DNA of 23,938 nucleotides from a virus. The DNA lies in the IMG/VR virus record IMGVR_UViG_3300044699_000029, positions 1 through 23,938 of that record; one strand, written 5' to 3'. The notes under the pieces are model-generated. The model was not told where the DNA came from, made no database searches, and was given only the letters and a program-made list of their open reading frames with translations. Below, piece by piece: positions 3,063-23,012 of this stretch (positions are counted from its first letter, which is position 1; each line of letters begins with the position of its first letter). A program made the translations under genes and the position numbers.

Positions 3063-4172
3063 TTACGCGGGGGGAGCGACAGCGAGCGCGCCCGGCACCT
3101 GAGGCAGGCTCGTGCGCGAGATGACGTTCTCCACCTCCGCGCGGACCTGATCGGGCGTCGCGCCGCCGCCGCCGGTGGCCCCGCCGCCGCCGCCCGTGCC
3201 GCCGCTGTCCACATCGGAGCCCACGCGCATACCGCCGATCGCGCGAAGCTGCGCCTCGTTGGGCACCACGATGTACTTGGCGCCCAGGCTCTCCATGAGC
3301 AGCCACGCCTTATAGGCCGTGTCGGCGGGCTCGCCGGGCTGCGCCTCGGATTGCAGCGACCGATAGCACACGCCATCACTGCAGTAGATCGTGGCGTTGC
3401 CCTCGACTTTGAGATACATGGGGATCATGTCTTGCCCTTCTCCTGCTGGCGTTCCCTCTTGAATGGCTGCCCAAAGCTGCGCCATGGTGCCCCGGAACGC
3501 GTTGCAATCCGTGGCGTCCGAGGCACCCGGGCAGTTGGCGCCTGATGTGTACTGCCAACCGTTGGGGAGTCTTCCGCCTATGGGATCGTCCCAGCCGGTG
3601 CCGTTGTTACCCCCGGCGGCATCGTAGACCGCGCGCGGTGTGCCGTCGCCGCCGCTGTAATGCGACTGGATCAGCAGCCCCGGCAGCTCGTTCCCGTCGG
3701 CGTTGGGCATGTAATTATTGACCACCCATTGCGGCAGATACCACGTCATCGGCATGCGCGGCTTGGCCCACCACGCGTCGCGGAAGCGCAGCACATCCTC
3801 CCAGCGCGGCCACAGCCCGTTGCTGACCAACTCGGGATAATGCTCGATGTCGGCCATCGCCCAGTCGGATCCGACCTTGTCGGCCTCCGATTCGAGCCAG
3901 TCGGCCTGCCGCATGTGGCTGGCCGCGTCGCCGTGGATCAGGTTGTGATAGGCGCCTCGGTGCGCGTACGCCGCCCGGGCGGCACCCAGGCTCATCTCGG
4001 CGAAGTACGGCGAGGCCCGGTTGAATCCGTTCGGGTCGCCGTAGGTGGCGCGGGCGCACATCACCCCCGATGTCGCCGCCTTGATCAGATCCCAGTCCAG
4101 CGGCGAACCGCGCCGGTTGCGGTCCCAAAACGACACGTCGATCCACAGTGTGCTGATCTCATCACCGGACAT
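3063..4172 (-). CDS. Endolysin, glycoside hydrolase family 25 (lysozyme-like)
   Basis: 369 residues, ATG sharing its A with the upstream TAA. GH25 domain about 1-235: first strand WIDVSFWDRNR, catalytic D-x-E in MADIEHYPE, TWYLPQWVVNNYM, and the closing QYTSGANCPGASDATDCNAF. GH25 enzymes cut the MurNAc-GlcNAc bond of peptidoglycan. No signal peptide, so it needs a holin for release. The C-terminal third is a separate region with IYCSDGVCYRSLQ and KAWLLMESLGAKYIVVPNEA, a Gly/Thr linker (SGGTGGGGGATGGGG) and a helical tail (VRAEVENVISRTSLPQ). The linker suggests a hinged C-terminal module of unknown binding target. Confidence 0.85.
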   Translation of the reverse strand: MSGDEISTLWIDVSFWDRNRRGSPLDWDLIKAATSGVMCARATYGDPNGFNRASPYFAEMSLGAARAAYAHRGAYHNLIHGDAASHMRQADWLESEADKVGSDWAMADIEHYPELVSNGLWPRWEDVLRFRDAWWAKPRMPMTWYLPQWVVNNYMPNADGNELPGLLIQSHYSGGDGTPRAVYDAAGGNNGTGWDDPIGGRLPNGWQYTSGANCPGASDATDCNAFRGTMAQLWAAIQEGTPAGEGQDMIPMYLKVEGNATIYCSDGVCYRSLQSEAQPGEPADTAYKAWLLMESLGAKYIVVPNEAQLRAIGGMRVGSDVDSGGTGGGGGATGGGGATPDQVRAEVENVISRTSLPQVPGALAVAPPA

Positions 4173-13245: not shown

Positions 13246-14091
13246 TCACACCGGCCCGTCGTAGGCGTACCCGCGATAGGCCGCGTCGGTTTCGGGGATG
13301 CCGGTACTGCGCGGCCCGGCCACCCCGAGGCGGTACACCCCGCCCTCTTGGATCGTGTAGGAGATGGCACGGTCGGGGATGGCCGACTTGCCCAGGGCCA
13401 GCTTGCTGGGCAGCCGGGTCAAGAACGCGTCCTCCACGTCGCCGGGCGTGAACGCCATGCCGTGCTCATACTCCACGATGATGTTGGCCTGCCCGCATGG
13501 CCAATAGCCGGGGCGGTAGATCACCCCGGACGGCTTGGCGGTCAGCGCGGCCACAGACGGAGCGTCAAGCGCGGTGCCGCCGATGATGACCGCGCGTACG
13601 GCCCGCAAGTAGATATCGGGCACGGCCAGAACGCTCTTGCCGTTGCCGTCCAGCGCGTAGCGGGCGAAGCGGGGCACGAACGCGTGCCCGGCGACCCGTT
13701 CGGCCTCCTGCTCGGCGCGGGTACGCGCCGCCTCCAAGTCGGCCGTCGACCAGGTTGTGGTCGACTTGAGCCCGGCGTGGACGCTGCGCATGCGCGCCAG
13801 GGTGCACATGAACCCGCCAACAATCTCCACCTGGTCGGTTTCGGTGACCGCGACCCCGGCGAGGGTGCCCAGCCACTCCACGTTGTAGAAGTCGACCTGA
13901 GCCGAGGCGGGCAGATCGAAGCTATAGGTGCCGGTGGATGGGTGTGTGGTCGCGAACGGGCTACCGGCGATCAGGGTGCCGTCTAGGCGGCGCACGTTGG
14001 CTGTCACGGGTGCGGCGTCGGTCAAGGTTTCGCCCACGATGAACTGGTGCGTGAGCGTCGCCTTGTGCGTGGTCTGCACCCGTGTCAGCAT
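13246..14091 (-). CDS. Head-tail connector/adaptor with N-terminal beta domain
   Basis: 281 residues, ATG with GAAGGA upstream. Residues about 8-90 form a beta-rich module (VTANVRRLDGTLIAGSPF, STGTYSFDLPASAQVDFYNV) resembling the Ig-like or carbohydrate-type beta-sandwich at the start of some actinophage connectors. From about 95 the protein becomes a connector: STADLEAARTRAEQEAERVA with conserved residues, AVPDIYLRAVRAVIIGGTAL and IIVEYEHGMAFTPGDVEDAF. Helices followed by a beta hairpin of this kind dock on the portal ring (gp6/gp15-like proteins). Position just after the capsid block supports this. Confidence 0.72.
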   Translation of the reverse strand: MLTRVQTTHKATLTHQFIVGETLTDAAPVTANVRRLDGTLIAGSPFATTHPSTGTYSFDLPASAQVDFYNVEWLGTLAGVAVTETDQVEIVGGFMCTLARMRSVHAGLKSTTTWSTADLEAARTRAEQEAERVAGHAFVPRFARYALDGNGKSVLAVPDIYLRAVRAVIIGGTALDAPSVAALTAKPSGVIYRPGYWPCGQANIIVEYEHGMAFTPGDVEDAFLTRLPSKLALGKSAIPDRAISYTIQEGGVYRLGVAGPRSTGIPETDAAYRGYAYDGPV

Positions 14092-14094
14092 CGC

Positions 14095-14361
14095 CTATTC
14101 CTTCGAGCCGTCTGCGGTGGTTGCCGTGGTCTGGTGTGCGCTGCTGCGCCGCCCAGCCGGGGCAGAACCCCTGTCCTCGCCCGCTGCGGCCCGCTTCTCG
14201 GCCGCCTTGGCATGCGCCGCCGCCTTGGGCACGTCGGCCCCGGCGGCCTCCAAAACCTTGCGGGCGGCCACCTCGCGGTCGGGTTGACCCAATTCGCGGG
14301 CCAGCTTCAGCTCGGCCAGCGCCTGCTCCACATGCGGGGCCTGCTTTTCGTCACCAGGCAT
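14095..14361 (-). CDS. Small alanine-rich charged protein, unknown
   Basis: 88 residues, ATG with AAAGGGG seven bases upstream. Helical N-terminal half (VEQALAELKLARELGQPDRE and EVAARKVLEAAGADVPKAAA), then a disordered Ala/Arg/Ser/Thr-rich tail ending GSKE. Its position directly before the connector gene is typical of small actinophage head proteins. No known domain; a role as assembly or linker protein is only a guess. Confidence 0.6.
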   Translation of the reverse strand: MPGDEKQAPHVEQALAELKLARELGQPDREVAARKVLEAAGADVPKAAAHAKAAEKRAAAGEDRGSAPAGRRSSAHQTTATTADGSKE

Positions 14362-15088
14362 GTACGAACCCCTTTGCTCTCAGCGTTTCCCGAATGGTCT
14401 CGGCGTCCTGGCGCCTCTGCCGCGCGTAGGGCTCCGAGTAGTAGTCGCCCGGCCGGTAACCGGATCGACCCTCGACATAGGTTTGATCTTTGTTGCGGCC
14501 GCTGATGTCGTAGCGGTCCTGGGTCAGCACGATGGGCGGCACCGGGTCGACCATCAGCCCGGCCAGCTTGCCCACGTCGTGATACCAGGTGTCTATGGCG
14601 GGCAGCTCGGGCAGGTGGCCGGTGTAGGTGAACACGTCGGCGTGCACGACCGGAAAGCACAGGTTGCCGTGGTTGTCGCCGCCATGGGTGAAGATGACCG
14701 ACGGCGCGCTCTGGCGGCGCACGGTGAAATCCCAGCCCGGCGTCAACATGATCCCGTCGTCTCCCCACGACGGCAGGATCCATTCGCCGCGCGCGTGGCC
14801 GATCAGCTCGGCGTAGTAGTAGGCGCTGTGCGCGTACCCGTACCGGCACGGCGCCTCGAACACATGCGCGGCGCCGAGCTGGCGGGCGTGCTCGCCGGTT
14901 TCCGGGTCGTCCGGGTCGTGGGCGATCAGGATTTCGATCAACTCGGGCTGCGCGGCCGTCTCGCGCAGGCTGTAGACCGATCTGGAAAGCATGTCGTGGC
15001 GCGCACGCGAGGGCACCAGCACGCTGATCATGCCGGGGATCCGGTCGGCGGGCGGCACCATCGCGATGGGCAGCATGAGCGCATTCAC
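14351..15088 (-). CDS. Family 2 (GT-A) glycosyltransferase
   Basis: 245 residues. The GTG at 15088 (GTGA overlap, GAGG upstream) is preferred to an in-frame ATG at 15106 without a ribosome site. It opens with the GT2 signature: ISVLVPSRARHDMLSRSVYS (21-40), then LIAHDPDD (54-61). EWILPSWGDDGIMLTPGWD (about 102-120) holds the GDDG acid pair expected for metal/nucleotide-sugar binding. The C-terminal part includes HADVFTYTGHLPELPAID and a basic helical end (ARQRRQDAETIRETLRAKG). No membrane segment, so it would act in the cytoplasm on a soluble acceptor such as a capsid or tail protein. It overlaps the next gene by 11 bases. Confidence 0.78.
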   Translation of the reverse strand: MNALMLPIAMVPPADRIPGMISVLVPSRARHDMLSRSVYSLRETAAQPELIEILIAHDPDDPETGEHARQLGAAHVFEAPCRYGYAHSAYYYAELIGHARGEWILPSWGDDGIMLTPGWDFTVRRQSAPSVIFTHGGDNHGNLCFPVVHADVFTYTGHLPELPAIDTWYHDVGKLAGLMVDPVPPIVLTQDRYDISGRNKDQTYVEGRSGYRPGDYYSEPYARQRRQDAETIRETLRAKGFVHAW

Positions 15089-15753
15089 GGTTGCCTCACC
15101 CACCATCCGGCCGGATGGTGCGAGATGCGGTGCGCCGCCTCAATGTCGACGTCGCGGGCCCACGCCGGGTTGCCTTCCAGACATTGGACGATCGCATCCA
15201 TCGGGTTACCGAGGGCAGGCTCACCGAAGTGGTGTTTACGCCATATCCGCGCGTCGGCAAAGGCGAAGATGCCATCTTCCACGACCAAATAGCAGCCGGG
15301 TGTGACCATCGGCCCGTACGCGGCGATCTCGGCGGCCACATGGGCGTGCGTGTGGCAGGAATCGAGGCTGACCATGGTGCGTCGCCCGAGCGCCAGCGCG
15401 GCCACCTCGGCCACCACGGCCGGGTGAATCGAGTCGCCGCTGATATAGCGGATCCGGCTGATCAGGCGCGGGTACTTGATCCGCAGCGCCGCCCGGTCCC
15501 CGAGGCGCACGCGGAAGTCTACGGTGATCACGTCCAGCCCTTGCTCGGCGAACCACGCAGCCGATTCGCCCGCCATCGTGCCCGTTTCGATGATCAGCTC
15601 GGGCTTGGTGGCCTCGATGATGGCCGCGTACCGGGCGAGGTCGGCCGGGTGCTTAAGCATGTAGCCGTGGCCGGTCACGAATGGGGTGGTCGCGAATTCG
15701 GCGATGGTCGCGGCGGTGTCCACGTGCACCGGCAGCACGGCGGCGGCGCTCAC
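15085..15753 (-). CDS. SAM-dependent methyltransferase, CmcI/cephalosporin hydroxylase-like family
   Basis: 222 residues, GTG start (GAGGTG five bases upstream, GTGA overlap). The SAM site is visible as IIETGTMAGES (54-64), the acidic end of the next strand as VITVDF (D79), and the family's later motif as SLDSCHTHAHVAAEIAAYGP (about 129-148) with CYLVVEDG (154-161). This family includes sugar O-methyltransferases such as rhamnosyl O-methyltransferases, and CmcI. Between two glycosyltransferase-like genes, O-methylation of a transferred sugar is the most likely job; methylation of another target is possible. About normal length, with all core motifs present. Confidence 0.72.
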   Translation of the reverse strand: MSAAAVLPVHVDTAATIAEFATTPFVTGHGYMLKHPADLARYAAIIEATKPELIIETGTMAGESAAWFAEQGLDVITVDFRVRLGDRAALRIKYPRLISRIRYISGDSIHPAVVAEVAALALGRRTMVSLDSCHTHAHVAAEIAAYGPMVTPGCYLVVEDGIFAFADARIWRKHHFGEPALGNPMDAIVQCLEGNPAWARDVDIEAAHRISHHPAGWWVRQP

Positions 15754-16292
15754 AGCGGCACCTCGCTTATGCGGTAGTGCACGTGCACCGGGGTGCAGTC
15801 CCAGGCGATGGGCGCCTCGGCGTGCACGTGGCGGTAATGCCAGGCGGCGAACTCCATGTCACCGAAACGTGGCGCTACCGGGGTGCCGAGAACCTGCCCG
15901 AAGGCCCATAGCAGGCTGGCCGGGAGGTAGACCATGCCGAACCCGAATAGGTGCGCGGTAGCGTCGTCGGGCGTGCAGTAGCGCATGGCCGCATCGCCGG
16001 GCAGGTATCGGCGCACGTTCCACACCGGCGTGCTCAGCCCGGTGCGTTTGGGCGAGGGGTAGACCAGCACCGGGGCCACCAGAACACGCTCGGGGTCGCT
16101 GCGGGCCTGTTTGGCGAACGATTCGAGGGCTTCACGCGACACGGCCGTGTCCCAATCGATGTGGATCACGTCGTCGTGCAGCTCGATCAGCTCGCGGTAG
16201 TCGTGGTCATGGTTGTAGATGCGCCGGGCGTCATCTTGCACGTAGTTGCGCTCGGGCGGGACCATGGCCGGAAACGATCGGATCAGCTGCAC
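15750..16292 (-). CDS. Glycosyltransferase-like protein (short GT-A type)
   Basis: 180 residues from a GTG with a strong AGGAGGTG site about 6 bases upstream. A DWD motif (46-48, in DDVIHIDWDTAVS) sits where GT-A enzymes hold the metal and nucleotide-sugar, preceded by RELIELHDD. Later features are VLVAPVLVYPSPKRTGL, LFGFGMVYLPASLLWAFG and a C-terminal WHYRHVHAEAPIAWD block. The first part of a standard GT2 fold (nucleotide-binding strand) is short or missing, so it is a reduced or unusual enzyme. It is first of three consecutive modification genes; the stop overlaps the methyltransferase start (GTGA). Likely transfers a sugar to a virion protein or trims one; function is inferred. Confidence 0.55.
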   Translation of the reverse strand: MQLIRSFPAMVPPERNYVQDDARRIYNHDHDYRELIELHDDVIHIDWDTAVSREALESFAKQARSDPERVLVAPVLVYPSPKRTGLSTPVWNVRRYLPGDAAMRYCTPDDATAHLFGFGMVYLPASLLWAFGQVLGTPVAPRFGDMEFAAWHYRHVHAEAPIAWDCTPVHVHYRISEVPL

Positions 16293-16295
16293 GTC

Positions 16296-16535
16296 TCACA
16301 CCTCCTGCAGTTGCAGCCCGGCTGCCTTGGCGATTTTCTGGGCTCGGGCGGCGGCCGTACCGGTGCCGCCCGAGTTGACCCACTGATTGCATGCCAGCAA
16401 CGCCATCCCGGCCAGTCCTGGCGCGAGTGTGACCCCGTATGTTGTCGACTTGCTCGCGGTTTTGGAGCCGTTGAGCGTGACGTTGTTCCACGCGCCACCC
16501 GCGAGCGGCCTGACTTGGGTTGTCGTCACTGCCAT
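16296..16535 (-). CDS. Small protein downstream of capsid gene, unknown
   Basis: 79 residues, starting MAVTTTQVRPLAGGAW, eight bases after the capsid stop, with a purine-rich GAGAGGG upstream. Threonine-, glycine- and alanine-rich with few charges, with a hydrophobic middle (TLAPGLAGMALLACNQWVN) and a helical end (ARAQKIAKAAGLQLQEV). It may be a virion accessory or capsid decoration protein by position, but no domain is recognised. Its end contains the strong AGGAGGTG ribosome site of the next gene. Confidence 0.6.
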   Translation of the reverse strand: MAVTTTQVRPLAGGAWNNVTLNGSKTASKSTTYGVTLAPGLAGMALLACNQWVNSGGTGTAAARAQKIAKAAGLQLQEV

Positions 16536-16543
16536 GCCCTCTC

Positions 16544-17974
16544 TTAGAACACAGGTGCGATAAGGCCCGTGCCGTTGACCTTGCCCACCGAGGACGCGAA
16601 CCGGCGGAACGAGTAGGCAAAGTACATGTAGAGCACGAGCGTCACGGCCAGGTTCGCCGCCTTGGGCTGCTCCGCGCGGATGAACTGCGGCGCGGCCGGG
16701 TCGACCCACAGGTGGCATTCATCCGATGCCGCCACGTAGATCTCGTCTTCGGTGCCCGCGCCCAGGGCCGTGGAGCAGTTGTTGTCCACGATCACGACCA
16801 TGCCGTTGGGCAGGATGCCGCGCACCCCGGCGCCGTAGATCTCGGCCAGGTTCACACCGGCGGCCTGCGTCGGGATGCCCGGCTGGCCGAACATCGGCCA
16901 GGTGCTGGTCATCTGCGCCTGCAGCCAATACCAGCGCCGCGAGTGCATAACTGCGATGTCCGGCGTGGCGAACCCGAGCAGGGTCGCCTCCACACCCGCA
17001 GCGGCACCCAGCACCTTCGGGTACAGCTCAGGCCCGGTCGGGGTGGTGTCGTTGTAGGCCGTGGAGACGGCCAGCGCGGCCAGCCCCGTGGTGGCCTGGT
17101 TGATCAGCGTGTTGTCGAACGTGGTCGACAGCGAACGCTGCAGGTCGCTCATCGTCACGTCCTCGATGCCCCGGCCGCGTTCGATGGCCTGGCGTGAGAG
17201 CGACTGCTGACCGGCGGCGGTCTGCACGTTCTCCGTGAGCAGCGTGTCATCCATCGAGGTGGCCGAGACGGTGTCAAATTCGGCCGCCTGCAGAGCCGTG
17301 GTCAGACCCGTGGTGATCTGGGAGATGTTCACGGTCATGCCGTCGGGCGGCAGGTCGTGACGGTTGCACGCATCGGCGAAGGGCTGCAACGCCCGCGCCT
17401 TGGGCGCGTACATGTCGGTGAGGTACTGCGGCACGGTCAGACCGGCGAACGCGGACGTACCGGCGTCACCGGCGGCACGCTGAATGTACTTGCCGCGCTC
17501 CACGCGCTCCTCGCGCATGTGCTGGATCAGCCGCGACTCGGCCTCCGGGTCGCGGTGCACGAACGAGGCGGTCACGTCGCGCAGGAACTTGCCACCCTTG
17601 CCGGTGTTGCCCTGGTGATAGGTGCGCTCTTCCTGCCCGATGCGGGCCACCCGGTCGTAGGCGGGCAGCGGCACACGGGTGTGCGTGTCGACGCCACGCG
17701 TGGCCAGACCCTCGTCGGCGGCTTCCTCGGCCTCTTTGGCGTTCTTGAGCTGCGCCAGCTTGGCCTTGATCCCGGCGGCGTCCTTCTTGGCCCGCTCGAA
17801 GCCTTTCATCGCGGCGGCGACCTCGGCGTTGTCCTCGTCGGACAGCTCTGCCTTGCCCTCGTTCTTGGCCTTGGCGTGGATCGTTTTGACTGTGGCCAGG
17901 CAGCGCTCCTGCCGCCTGGTAGCCAGGTCGAGCTCGACCTCATCGGCCATGATGAGCTCGTCGAATGTGGTCAT
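16544..17974 (-). CDS. Major capsid protein with N-terminal scaffold domain
   Basis: HK97-fold shell protein, 476 residues. ATG at 17974 has GAGAGG upstream and starts MTTFDELIMADEVEL. Residues about 1-100 are charged and heptad-like (AKAKNEGKAELSDEDNAEV, GIKAKLAQLKNAKEAEEAAD), the delta or scaffold domain that the upstream protease removes during maturation. The mature shell domain probably begins after the basic stretch around 125-170; its core includes GLTVPQYLTDMYAPKARALQ, ISQITTGLTTALQAAEFD and PDIAVMHSRRWYWLQAQ. The last section (VTLVLYMYFAYSFRRFASSV) is typical of this capsid family. No separate scaffold gene is visible, in line with the fused domain. Confidence 0.93.
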   Translation of the reverse strand: MTTFDELIMADEVELDLATRRQERCLATVKTIHAKAKNEGKAELSDEDNAEVAAAMKGFERAKKDAAGIKAKLAQLKNAKEAEEAADEGLATRGVDTHTRVPLPAYDRVARIGQEERTYHQGNTGKGGKFLRDVTASFVHRDPEAESRLIQHMREERVERGKYIQRAAGDAGTSAFAGLTVPQYLTDMYAPKARALQPFADACNRHDLPPDGMTVNISQITTGLTTALQAAEFDTVSATSMDDTLLTENVQTAAGQQSLSRQAIERGRGIEDVTMSDLQRSLSTTFDNTLINQATTGLAALAVSTAYNDTTPTGPELYPKVLGAAAGVEATLLGFATPDIAVMHSRRWYWLQAQMTSTWPMFGQPGIPTQAAGVNLAEIYGAGVRGILPNGMVVIVDNNCSTALGAGTEDEIYVAASDECHLWVDPAAPQFIRAEQPKAANLAVTLVLYMYFAYSFRRFASSVGKVNGTGLIAPVF

Positions 17975-18119
17975 GATGTTGCCTCTCGGGCATAGGGAAC
18001 GGAACGGTTCTCCCATGCGCCGACGGCGTCCGGATCTCCGGGCAGTCGTGCGATCCAGCCCGGAACATCCGCCGGGCCCGGAAACGGGCATATGAAGGTG
18101 TGTCAGGGGGTCGCGCGGG
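17975..18119 (-). promoter_or_regulatory. Hairpin-containing leader of the capsid gene
   Basis: This 145-base gap is one of the longest in the operon and lies directly upstream of the most highly expressed protein. It holds a 6-bp GC stem (GCCCGG/CCGGGC at 18058-18063 and 18072-18077, 8-base loop), a CCGGA/TCCGG near-palindrome at 18030-18041 and an imperfect GGGAAC/GTTCTCCC pair at 17994-18013. There is no T-tract, so it is not a standard intrinsic terminator. No clear -35/-10 pair was found. It could be an RNA processing or stabilising element or hold a promoter; this is inference. Confidence 0.3.
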
Positions 18120-19875
18120 CTAGCTGAGTGCTTCCGACATCGCCAGCCACGCTTCCACTGAGGACAGAGTACGGCCTGACCTGATTTCGGTGTCAGGGTC
18201 TGCGGGGTGCTGTGCCGCGACGGCCACGCCGTGGCCGGTGCGGGTCTGGCGCGGCACGCTCAGGTCGGCGCGCCGGTTGAGCCGGTCAAGCGCCTCGCGG
18301 GCCACACCGAGGGGAAGCTGGGCGATCTCGTCCAGAACCTCCCGGGAACGGGCCCCGATCGACGTGTAGGGGTTCGCGCCGAAGTTGACGGCCGACACAT
18401 CGCCCCGGTGGATGTCGAAAGCGTTGATCCTGAACGTGGTGAAGTCTTCCGACCATGCCCCGTCATCGATCATGAACGCGAACGACTGCTCTGTGGTGAT
18501 CTTGTCGTTGATGTTGGTGACCAGGTTTTGCACCTCGGTGCGCTGCGGATTGAGCCAGGCACGATCCCACATGCCCGTGCCGTCGGCGCCCAGGTCCAAT
18601 GTGTTGGCGATCGCCGTGCGCGCCAGCGCCAAACCCATGTGATTGATCAAAAAGACGGTGTCTGGGCTACGGGACAGGGTGTTGTCGGCCGAACCGGTCG
18701 ACACGATCTCGGTGTAGGGGCCTGCCCAGTCCCACATGTCGTAGCCGACCTCGAACACGGTGGCGTAGCCCTCGACGACGAAGAACGGTTTCCCGTCGCG
18801 GGTTTCCTCGCGCACCCGCAGCCGCGTGGGCAGGGTGATGGTCGGTATGGCGATGCCTGCCCCTTGCCCGCCGATCCATGCTGTGGACAGGCGCCGGGCG
18901 GCCCCGAGCGGTACCTTGGGTGCCCGCACCGGCCTCGAACAGCTCACGGCGGCGCGCGGCGGCGTCGCGTATGTCGCGGGTAGGCGGCAGCACGGCTTGC
19001 GGCGCTGCTTGCGGCGGTGCGGTGCGCTCGCGTGTGTGCACTGCGGCGCGCGCCGGGCGGGCGGTGCGGGTCACCGATCCCGGGGCGGGTGCCTGCTCGC
19101 GGCTGGCGTAGCGGTAGCCGAACGATTCCATGTTGAACGTGCGGGTTTCGACACCCTCGCCCACGTCCTGCTGCGGGCGTTCCACGGCCAGCACCGAGTC
19201 GGCCAGCCCCATTTGGACGGCCTCGCGGGCGAAAGCCCACGTTTCGGCCAGCATGAGCTCGCGCCACGCGGTCGGCTCGCCGCCGCGCGCGGCCGCGTAG
19301 ATCTCGGCCACGTTCGCAGACTGCCGATCGAGGAACACTTGCGCCGCGCCCATGTCGCTGGCCTGTCCCTCTTGAACCATCGACGCGTCATGGATCATCA
19401 TCTGTGAGCCGGGCATCATCACGATCTCGTCCCCGGCCATGGCGATGACCGAGGCGCCCGAGGCGGCCAGCGAGTCGACATACACCATGATCCGCGCCGG
19501 GTGGTGATTGAGGGCGTTATAGATCGCGATCGAGTCGAATACGGAGCCGCCGGGCGAGTTGATCCGCACCTTGATCTGTTCCACGTCCAGCGCGGCCAGG
19601 TCGGCGGCGAACTTCTTCGCGCTGACCCCCATCGAGCCGCCGATTTCGTCATAGATGAACACGGTCGCGGTGGACGGGCCGTCGCGTGACTCGCCCGGCG
19701 CGAGCGGTGCCGGTTCGCGGATCTCATACCAGGGCAGCTTGACTTGCGACATCTGCCGGGGTGTGAGCCCGAAACGTTCGGCGTGCTCGATCAGCCGCGC
19801 CGCTGTGCGTCCCACGCGGCCCTGCAGGCGGCGCACGTGGACGCTTTCGGCCTGCTGGTCGTCGATATTGGACAT
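18120..19875 (-). CDS. Fused ClpP-like and HK97-type prohead protease (one frame break)
   Basis: Two protease domains that cleave capsid scaffold in other phages appear joined here, about 584 residues. Residues about 68-235 are ClpP-like (S14): INSPGGSVFDSIAIYNAL, catalytic Ser139 in SLAASGAS and His162 in MMIHDAS. A proline/alanine-rich linker follows (about 235-320). The second domain is HK97 prohead protease (S78): GYATVFEVGYDMWDW, His in FLINHMG, Ser in EQSFAFMI, and DVSAVNFGANPYTS. The ClpP frame stays open to 18667 but past about 18920 it is only a shadow of the second domain. The second frame has no credible start (GTG at 18947 lacks a ribosome site, no ATG before the conserved part). 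Removing one base in the CCC near 18918-18920 gives one protein. Alternatives: programmed frameshifting, or two genes with an unrecognised start. Confidence 0.8.
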
Positions 19876-21177
19876 CAGGTTGCCCCTTCCCAGGCGGCCG
19901 GTGGGCCTGACTCGATTGCCTTGGTGGCGCCGCCCACGTGCGCTAGAACCCGTATCGGGGCGGCGGCCATGTCTGTGTCTGTGTGGTCTGGCCCGGCGGC
20001 CAGCGAGGCGGTGCCGGTGGCCGGGGCCACGCGCGGCGCGCCGAACAGCCGCACATATTCGGCCTCTTGATCCGGTGTCAGCGGCGGCCGGTTATCCAGC
20101 TCGCGGGCCTCGCTGACCGTCAGGCGCCGCTTGTCGATGGCCGCGTTCATGACCTCGCCACGCGCGGCTGGATCCATGCGCAGCAGGGCATCAGTGTTCA
20201 GCTTGACGAAACGCGGCCTCGGCAGCAGCTTGGTGAGGTTCTTCTCCCGCCGGTTGACCGCCGGACCCAACTGCATGATCAGGAATTGGAGGTTTCTTTG
20301 GGTGATCGTCGCGTAGGTGACGGTGCCCGGCGCGGAAATCGCGGCGTCGATCAGGTCGGCCGGGCAGCCCAGAAACCGGGTGATGTCGGTCAGGCCGAAA
20401 CGGCGCCCTTCGATCCACTCCATGCCCGCCTGCTCGGCTTGAACCATGTCGTATTCCCACGCGGACCCGTACACGAACAGGTCGCCGTCGCTGACCGTGG
20501 CGTTCCACCGGTCTTTGAGGATCCCGGCTTCCTTCGCGTCGACCACTTTGCGGTCGGTGTTCTTAAGCCGCGCCTTGGGTACGGCGGCGCCGCCGAACCA
20601 ATCCAGCGCGAACTGTTGCATGGAGAGGTATTCGCCCACGGACCAGGCCGCGTAGGCCAGCGGGGACAGCCCGGCGGCCACCCGGCCATCACATACTGGC
20701 GCTCATGCCACACCTGGTCGCGTGTGAACTTCTCACCGAAGATGCGGTAGCTGACCGTGCCGTCGCGGTCCTGGATCACGGTGCACGCCGAGATGGGCAT
20801 CAGCTCGATGCGGGAGGGCAGCCCGAGCGCGTTGCGGGCCGTGATGAGCCCGATCGCGTTACCGGCACGGTCCAAATCCATCTGTGAGGCGTACATCCAG
20901 TCCATGTAGTCCCACTCTTCGCCGCCGGGCGCGAGCAGCACCGGCGGCGTGGGCCTTTCGACTGGACTTTGCCGACCTTGGTGAACACGTCAAGGGGGAA
21001 TGTCGACATTAGACCGGCGCGGGTCTGCAGGCATGCCCAGACAGCGGAGTGGCGCATCGAGGATTCATCGGTGACGACGACCGAGCCTTTGCGGCCGCCG
21101 GACCCGCGCGACGGGATCAGCGGGCCGTCGACATTGGACACCGCGTCGCGGCGGGCGAATCCGCGCAACAGGCTCAC
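19875..21177 (-). CDS. Portal protein (two frame breaks)
   Basis: Portal ring subunit at the DNA-entry vertex, HK97/phage_portal type, about 434 residues once two missing bases are restored. The first third starts at a GTG (21177, GTGA overlap, with AGGAAGGGG upstream) and carries SAVWACLQTRAGLMSTFP, a typical portal N-terminal helix. The frame is lost in the GGCCC run near 20951-20955 and resumes as VLLAPGGEEWDYMDWMYAS. It is lost again near 20671-20683 and resumes as AGLSPLAYAAWSVGEYLS, running to the stop at 19875. Portal features include ALGLPSRIELMPIS, MQQFALDWFGGAAVPKA and GMEWIEGRRFGLTDITRFLG. The stop overlaps the protease start (ATGA). All three pieces read as portal with nothing lost between them, so a short indel each time is the simplest account. 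Confidence 0.88.
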
Positions 21178-21356
21178 GTTTCGGCCCCTTCCTCGTCGCG
21201 GGCGCCGCGTTCGATCAGCCGCGCGCTTGCCAGCAGGATGATCCCGCCGCCGATGGTGCACGCAAATCCCATGAACGGGTAGAGCAGCACGCTGACTCCG
21301 GCCGCGATCGCCAGCGCTCCGAGAGCATCGAGTACGGCGACCACGGTACGGCTCAC
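21174..21356 (-). CDS. Small two-helix membrane protein
   Basis: 60 residues, GTG start sharing one base with the terminase stop (TAGTG) and ending in a GTGA overlap with the portal gene. Two hydrophobic stretches (LDALGALAIAAGVSVLLYPF and ACTIGGGIILLASARL) form a probable membrane hairpin, followed by a charged tail (IERGARDEEGAET). A membrane protein wedged between terminase and portal is unusual but known in actinophages, without an agreed role. Ideas such as exclusion or membrane docking of packaging would be guesses. Confidence 0.7.
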   Translation of the reverse strand: MSRTVVAVLDALGALAIAAGVSVLLYPFMGFACTIGGGIILLASARLIERGARDEEGAET

Positions 21357-23012
21357 TATCGGGGCTCCTCGCAGGCGGGGGAATCATCCATAGCATGCCA
21401 CCAACCGGCGTCCCTGGGGTAAATGGCTTTGCCGCAGCGCACACAGCGGCGGCTGGAGTCCACCGTGTCCAGCACGTCATAGTCGTCTTCGCCCAGTGTG
21501 TCCTCGCCGAGCATGGCTAACACCACACCATACAAAGGGCCCAGCTCGGAAGACACTCCCCGCTTGACGAACGTGAACGAGCCGCCCGGCATCGGCAGCG
21601 GCCGCGCCTGACCCAGCGCCCGATCAAGCTCGGGCTGGCCGGTGTGCCACAGCATCGGCCCGGTGTAGACGATGGGCTCATCGGTGGCCGGATCCCGAAG
21701 GGTTTCCTTACGCAGCTCGCCCGTGGCGTCATAGAACCGGCCACACGCGGCCGCGATCTCGTTCTGATTGGGTGTGAGGCACCTTGACCCCGGCATTGCG
21801 CAGCGGCACCAGCAGCGAGGTGGCCTGGCGGCGCACGTCGATGACCACGGCGTAGGGATCCTGCGCCTCGATGATCTCCATCAGGCGGGGTTGGATCCAC
21901 TCCACCCCCGGCGCGTCGACCGGGATGCGGTATCCCGGCTCGACTACCTCCACGTGAATATCGCCATCAGAGCGGCGGCCAGCTGCCAGAATCCAGCCGC
22001 GCGAGCGATCCTCGCTGATCTCGGCCGCCAGCACGGGCCGCCCGGCGATCTGGGAGTCTGGATCCAGTCGACCGTCCCATGTCGTCTCGCGGATCAGCGC
22101 CCACTTCGCGACTGTCTCTTTGGGTTCCCATCCCAGGTATTCGGCGTTGAAATCGACCAGGTCGAAGTCCTCGAAGTCCTCGGCCACCTTGGCCTCCGAG
22201 ACAGTGATGCCCAGGCCCGGCATCGCCAGGCGCCACGTGGCCGGGTCGCCCGGATCCATGCCCTCGGGGGCTGAGAAGTCGAAGAATGCGGTGCCGTGGT
22301 TGACCCCGGCCTCCGCGCGGGCCCGGCCACGGTCGCGTTTGCGTTTCAGGTAGGGCCATGTGCCCGGCAGCGCCCGCGACAGCCCCGGGATCATCGAGAG
22401 CACCCACAGCTGCGACCACGGCCGGGTCAGCATCGCCGGGCGCATACCCAGCTCGGTGCGCGCGTCCGGCCGCGACCACGCCTCGTCAATGAACCCGAGA
22501 TCGAGGGTGTCGCCCGTTCCCGACGTTTTACCGGTCGTGGACCCCGGCGACCAGATCGAACCGTTGCGCCAGATCATCGCCTCACGGTTTGTGGTCAGCC
22601 GGGGATGGAACATGTCGCGAAACGCGCGGGTTTTGCCCAGCCGGGCCACGTGGATATCGCGCCACTTCTCCCGCGCCTCGTCGGCGGTCTGCGCCGTGTA
22701 GAGGATGCGCTGCGGGCCCGTGTGGGCGAACCCGATACAGCGGTGCGTCGCCACGGAGAGCACGAGCTCGCTCTTGCCGGTGGCCTGCCGGGGCCCGATC
22801 ACGACCACCTGACCGTAGGCGCGCAGCCCCGTCTGCGGGTCGATCTCCATGGCGATATCGGCGATATAGCGCTGGTGGGGCATGTACGGCCTGCCGAGGC
22901 GCCGCGCCACCTCCGCAAGGCGCGGGCCCAGCGTCGGGCGATCAGGCGTCCGGGGAGTCGAATACCGGGGTAGCCATATCCTGGAATCCGCTCTCTGGGC
23001 TGTCAGCGTCAC
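21356..23012 (-). CDS. terL: Terminase large subunit (one frame break near 21779)
   Basis: ATP-driven motor and nuclease that cuts and pumps DNA into the prohead. With the frame restored it is about 551 residues, a normal length. Walker A is GPRQATGKS (about 73-81), Walker B is LDLGFIDEA (170-178). Nuclease-type acidic positions are in LAAEISEDRS (about 331-335), YAVVIDVRRQA (D392) and CGRFYDA (about D428). The GTG at 23012 is chosen for the GGAGGT eight bases upstream. Near 21779 one extra base shifts the frame: the first part would run on to 21729, while the rest resumes as LTPNQNEIAAACGRFYD in the other frame; skipping one C restores a continuous protein. The C-terminus ends in a CxxC...C tail (CVRCGKAIYP) that looks like a small zinc ribbon. 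Confidence 0.9.

Follow-up and report, generated by a model that had tools for sequence, protein, structure and literature searches.

The three overlapping genes that follow the major capsid protein (MCP) gene of an uncultured phage most probably constitute a late head-operon module that O-methylates a virion glycan, in a manner resembling the cassette of mycobacteriophage Corndog and built from non-homologous parts. The probability assigned to this reading is roughly two in three (0.66), with both the acceptor and the sugar being putative. The sequence analyzed, referred to here as the window, is the complete stretch of 23,938 bases of the IMG/VR virus contig IMGVR_UViG_3300044699_000029, with a G+C content of 67.3%. 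Its minus strand displays a head-to-tail operon in the order terminase, portal, ClpP-like and S78 proteases, MCP, cassette and head-tail adaptor. The genes of the cassette and its neighbours are listed in Table 1.

Table 1. Cassette genes and neighbouring genes on the minus strand of the window.
Feature	Coordinates	Strand	Basis
Major capsid protein (MCP) gene, upstream neighbour	16544..18091 (start possibly 17974)	-	phrog_2263 major head protein, 2.1e-41
Small gene in the capsid-cassette gap, ~79 aa, function without assignment	16296..16535	-	ORF from ATG 16535
GTc, 180-aa probable minimal GT-A glycosyltransferase, GTG start	15750..16292	-	Conserved family and motifs
MT, SAM-dependent O-methyltransferase, CmcI/rhamnosyl O-methyltransferase family	15085..15753	-	PF04989, 1e-35
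GTa, GT-A fold / GT2-type glycosyltransferase, GTG start	14351..15088	-	phrog_14945, AF2, Foldseek
Small 88-aa gene in the cassette-adaptor gap	14095..14361	-	phrog_1869, 0.006 (family of unassigned function)
Head-tail adaptor (connector), downstream neighbour	13246..14091	-	phrog_442, 2.3e-16; phrog_30828, 7.6e-44

A preliminary description of this DNA had placed three overlapping minus-strand genes between capsid and connector. The open reading frames bear this out, with the phrog_2263 match upstream and the phrog_442 match downstream, and a small gene is also present on each side. A 77-aa equivalent of the one on the capsid side occupies the same place in contig L102. Successive cassette genes share a 4-base overlap (GTGA) at both the GTc/MT and the MT/GTa junction. 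The Shine-Dalgarno (SD) site of GTc, described beforehand as among the strongest in the window, is indeed the strongest among 25 starts tested, at -11.6 kcal/mol (AGGAGGTG). For GTa, the GTG at 15088 is favoured over the ATG at 15106 (anti-SD duplex energy -7.6 versus -1.7), and the start given earlier at 15106 therefore probably lies 18 bases too far upstream. Values of GC3 in the cassette genes range from 0.85 to 0.89, and relatives were found with 40-96% identity for GTc and MT and 53% for the closest relative of GTa, so the three frames are considered to be coding. Scanning from capsid to adaptor revealed no promoter-like sites of the sigma-70-like consensus, which was the only type covered, and no terminator-like sites on the minus strand. 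Sequence evidence supports the proposed cassette for sugar transfer and O-methylation and its tie to the expression of the capsid.

By sequence, MT is a member of the CmcI/rhamnosyl O-methyltransferase family, with sugar O-methylation as its predicted activity. The match to PF04989 spans positions 14-205 of the 206 in the profile (1e-35; 123.8 bits against a cutoff of 23.2), and the acidic SAM/metal residues D79, D131, E159, and D160 are invariant in 31 sequences; the CmcI-family label that the middle gene had been given is upheld on both counts. In the alignment with CmcI (PDB 2bm8), D131, E159, and D160 lie opposite the corresponding Asp, Glu186, and Asp187, which we take to be the metal ligands of that enzyme. 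PF04989 takes its name from the rhamnosyl O-methyltransferase, and Rv2959c belongs to it as well. Rv2959c methylates position 2 of a rhamnosyl residue in mycobacterial glycolipids (PMC2958813). The resemblance of MT to the CmcI/Rv2959c family thus comprises the full-length profile match, the conserved metal ligands and the SAM motifs. Unlike the cellular CmcI-family enzymes, MT represents a phage branch that is often fused to a glycosyltransferase, and the cellular genomes searched contained only distant relatives, 31-53% and mostly 31-45% identical.

GTa is confidently modelled as a GT2-type glycosyltransferase of GT-A fold. The AlphaFold model, obtained from a 33-row alignment, displayed a pLDDT of 84.6 and a pTM of 0.85, and GT-A enzymes were returned throughout the matches listed by Foldseek against the PDB (best E 4.9e-8). 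The closest folds among those listed were PcManGT, TarP, TarS, and SpsA. It should be noted that the fold is shared with PcManGT, TarP and SpsA, but that the TM-score to solved enzymes is only ~0.4-0.6. GTa also matched the glycosyltransferase family phrog_14945 (4.9e-5), while the match to PF00535 (6.5e-4, 20.1 bits) fell below the cutoff of 23.3; acidic residues D58, D60, D61, D110, and D111 are invariant in its conserved family. The earlier GT2 identification of the third gene is therefore retained on the basis of phrog_14945, the fold model and the Foldseek matches.

Scanning IMG/VR with the MT profile recovered 67 contigs, figures here being counts of contigs, some near-duplicates (e.g. 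L026 and L027), and not of independent events. A glycosyltransferase domain, GTn, is fused in front of MT in 27 of the 67 and forms a separate adjacent gene in 20, and all six members tested belong to the phrog_34859 glycosyltransferase family. GTa is located no more than 2 kb downstream of MT in 51/67 contigs. With regard to the conservation that the preliminary description had proposed to survey, the full glycosyltransferase-methyltransferase-glycosyltransferase trio is kept in 45/67, and a labelled MCP lies upstream of MT in 51/67, usually with the adaptor downstream. Beside the capsid gene, a glycosyltransferase and a methyltransferase recur, either adjacent or fused. The fused GTn-MT forms constitute one clade (support 97/87), and the MT of the window branches just outside it. 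The slot before the CmcI-type MT can be filled by GTn, by a phrog_14775-type GT2 (fused to MT in L022, separate in L045, L052, L054, and L056) or by GTc, and GTa is missing or replaced in some relatives. Further sugar enzymes accompany some cassettes, namely GT-B, a GT17-type enzyme and NAD-dependent epimerase/dehydratases (L009, L048, L049, L051, L059, L066-L068), with NAD-dependent sugar-nucleotide epimerases or GT-B enzymes added at L009 and L066-L068. No match was obtained for the window DNA against phage records, nor for the GTc, MT, and GTa proteins against 50,697 phage records.

These associations also bear on whether MT might instead methylate a small molecule or the side chain of a protein, independently of sugar transfer. 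The family founder, CmcI, is an antibiotic-tailoring enzyme and not a sugar enzyme, and PF04989 covers both kinds of activity. Such a role is decidedly unlikely, given the fusion and adjacency to glycosyltransferases counted above and the recurrence of the pairing with other methyltransferase families, including the TylF-type O-methyltransferase of Corndog, a type acting on macrocin, a sugar.

Several other arrangements were observed among the surveyed contigs. In L029 (7414-8817) GTn is fused with an FkbM methyltransferase, in L044 (2546-4108) a Methyltransf_11-type domain is fused with a GT-B glycosyltransferase, and in L045 (6540-8450) a GTa-like domain is fused with a methyltransferase-like domain. 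In L009 (4392-9914), L064, and L066-L068, the head slot holds cassettes that include NAD-dependent epimerase/dehydratases together with additional methyltransferases and enzymes of the GT17 or GT2 type, which places nucleotide-sugar synthesis beside the capsid gene.

GTc is quite probably a glycosyltransferase, judging from context and motifs. The main reason is that non-homologous parts are swapped between cassettes while the pair of sugar transferase and methyltransferase persists; the second is the GT-A order of its motifs. A motif scan recovered relatives in 21 contigs, including the window, and in all of them GTc lies directly behind the MCP; in 20/21 a SAM methyltransferase is no more than about one gene away (the exception being L103). 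The conserved elements are (D/E)WDxAV, a strand-helix FGFGMxYLP, D..F.GW and a C-terminal His, arranged as in GT-A enzymes. The DxD-like motif (D/E)WDxA is kept in 14/14 members, and its metal-binding role is putative. Such conservation across 21 contigs, the position of GTc in the exact slot that glycosyltransferases fill at other loci, and its occurrence after a GTn gene in L120 argue against the somewhat unlikely alternative that GTc is a head-associated or methyltransferase-partner protein, the window cassette then consisting of MT and one glycosyltransferase. That alternative draws on the searches of Pfam, PHROG and PDB sequences, in which neither GTc alone nor 14 family members gave a convincing match, on profile comparisons with glycosyltransferase families, which were not significant, and on a short N-terminal half. 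GTc is ~35 residues shorter than GTn before the DxD-like motif, and part of the usual nucleotide-sugar pocket, or nucleotide-binding half, may be absent. The label GT-A-like, previously applied to this gene, is thus favoured by context and motifs and finds no counterpart in the Pfam, PHROG or PDB matches. Likewise, the fold predictions that had been suggested gave a GT-A fold for GTa and none for GTc, whose model from a two-sequence alignment reached a pLDDT of 32, a value that also counts on the side of the alternative.

Comparisons did not support descent of GTc and the glycosyltransferase domain of the fusions from a common ancestor (HMM E 0.7; profile-profile P 0.097, or 0.17 with the full family). 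The best profile comparison was that with the Corndog-type glycosyltransferase family (L091 gp34), with P 0.0037, a suggestive value that is not significant after ~50 comparisons. The idea that all methyltransferases adjacent to GTc belong to the MT family of the window was rejected by tree and Pfam, those linked to GTc being mostly of the Methyltransf_24 type and sometimes Methyltransf_23/11. Among the GTc contigs, the window and its sibling L008/L114 alone carry the CmcI-type MT close to the fused clade. The window is therefore regarded as a hybrid of two cassette lineages, since the neighbour of its GTc is CmcI-type where elsewhere it is mostly Methyltransf_24.

Treatment of this gene set as unusual in the preliminary description is not sustained, since head-operon sets of O-methyltransferase and glycosyltransferase have already been described in cluster O mycobacteriophages (PMC4351075). 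The Corndog head operon includes an O-methyltransferase along with two glycosyltransferases and a putative N-acetylglucosaminyltransferase, a set proposed to modify the capsid (PMC4351075). PMC12363180 and PMC11600133 cite a report of virion glycosylation in Che8, Corndog and Myrna. Like the window, cluster O phages (Corndog gp35-gp38; Firecracker gp33-gp36) carry consecutive overlapping O-methyltransferase and glycosyltransferase genes in the head operon. The Corndog cassette lies between portal and protease, whereas that of the window lies between MCP and adaptor; its methyltransferase is of the TylF/Methyltransf_24 type and its glycosyltransferases are of other families, whereas the MT of the window is CmcI-type. 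Profiles of MT, GTn and GTa matched none of the four Firecracker proteins gp33-gp36. The window cassette would thus work like that of Corndog and not be a member by descent, the two being not homologous at profile level. What is new in comparison with Corndog is the different slot, the different enzymes, the frequent bifunctional fusion and a small family unnamed in the libraries searched.

An analogous cassette is present in Actinoplanes phage phiAsp2 (L100, AY576796, 13288-16467; Pas33-Pas35). Here, Pas33 is a phrog_14775-type glycosyltransferase, Pas34 joins a GTa-like domain to a methyltransferase (GTa profile 1e-82; 53% identical to L045 over the full length) and Pas35 is a further probable glycosyltransferase. 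Unlike the window, phiAsp2 has neither a CmcI-type MT nor GTc, and its genes follow the tail-fibre and, as deposited, head genes, whereas the window cassette fills the MCP-adaptor gap. The idea of a glycan cassette could be tested in this sequenced phage.

The role of GTc, the order of steps, the type of sugar, the virion acceptor and the benefit to the phage are what we infer, the acceptor from position and by analogy with Corndog-type precedents. The three enzymes would be co-translated immediately after the capsid protein. GTc, or at other loci the GTn fused to MT, would move a sugar from a host nucleotide-sugar onto a virion protein, most likely the MCP or a further head protein synthesized concurrently. 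MT would then O-methylate a hydroxyl of the attached sugar, and GTa would add a further sugar or glycosylate a second site. The exterior of the head would thereby acquire a defined methylated glycan. Because of the head-operon position and translational coupling, the target is expected to be made at the same time, with the capsid as the first candidate; a place next to its gene is no proof that the capsid is the acceptor. After the enzyme identities, sequential action of GTn and MT is the best-supported step, because the two activities are fused. Several GTc cassettes contain no other recognisable glycosyltransferase, and for these the sugar claim therefore rests wholly on GTc. More tentatively, and with somewhat less than even confidence, the MCP-adaptor gap may serve as a dedicated exchange site for glycan modules across a large group of uncultured phages whose hosts are high-GC and probably actinobacterial, in which the bifunctional enzyme methylates a capsid glycan and GTc represents a new minimal family of ~180 aa with a reduced nucleotide-binding half.

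The same enzymes could be directed at a host cell-surface or secreted glycan, for receptor masking, superinfection exclusion or lysis timing, instead of the virion. GT2 enzymes and rhamnosyl O-methyltransferases act on actinobacterial cell-envelope glycolipids (PMC2958813), and the wall-teichoic acid enzymes TarP and TarS are among the closest folds to GTa. We consider this unlikely: one would expect a set that modifies the surface to be early or to lie among lysogeny genes. The cassette is not a separate moron, being placed inside the head operon with translational overlap and recurring between MCP and adaptor, and neither a lipid-carrier nor a flippase partner is present among the labelled ORFs of the locus maps.

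Glycosyltransferases with hydroxymethylated bases as substrates are familiar from phages, and the enzymes might accordingly hypermodify phage DNA with glycosylated and methylated bases. This is barely credible for a cassette in the head operon, away from replication genes. Moreover, PF00303 (thymidylate synthase/hydroxymethylase-type) was detected in the positive controls and in 0 of 17 cassette records of 34-68 kb, a set separate from the window record, which is a fragment. Homologues restricted to DNA-modification contexts had been named as evidence against a virion glycan, and this PF00303 result in the 17 large records does not display such a restriction. Tet_JBP (PF12851) was likewise found in 0/17 records, but its controls were silent too, so this says little.

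Capsid glycosylation in phages is known from a handful of mycobacteriophages, in which it is reported to lower antibody recognition. If the module is retained in one slot beside the capsid gene by dozens of diverse phages, and is rebuilt time and again from non-homologous parts, methylated virion glycans would be a widespread trait under strong selection. Effects on antibody recognition, host binding and particle stability, suggested in the preliminary description, are putative. For environmental phages the antibody argument, which concerns phages within animals, can be dispensed with; protection from degradation, or altered contacts with hosts or surfaces, would be equally plausible. The fused enzyme provides a simple handle for testing, as a single protein would be expected both to place a sugar on a known neighbour and to methylate that sugar.

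Two other genes of the head operon look frameshifted in the window. The ClpP-like and S78 protease (18120-19875) is split over two overlapping frames, corresponding to a single 584-aa ORF in L008, and the portal (19875-21480) is similarly split, corresponding to a single 535-aa ORF in this near-identical sibling; the splits represent either assembly or sequencing indels or real changes. At 3063-4172 lies a possible endolysin, judging from a similarity to glycosyl hydrolase family 25 that is weak and falls below the cutoff (E 0.0014).
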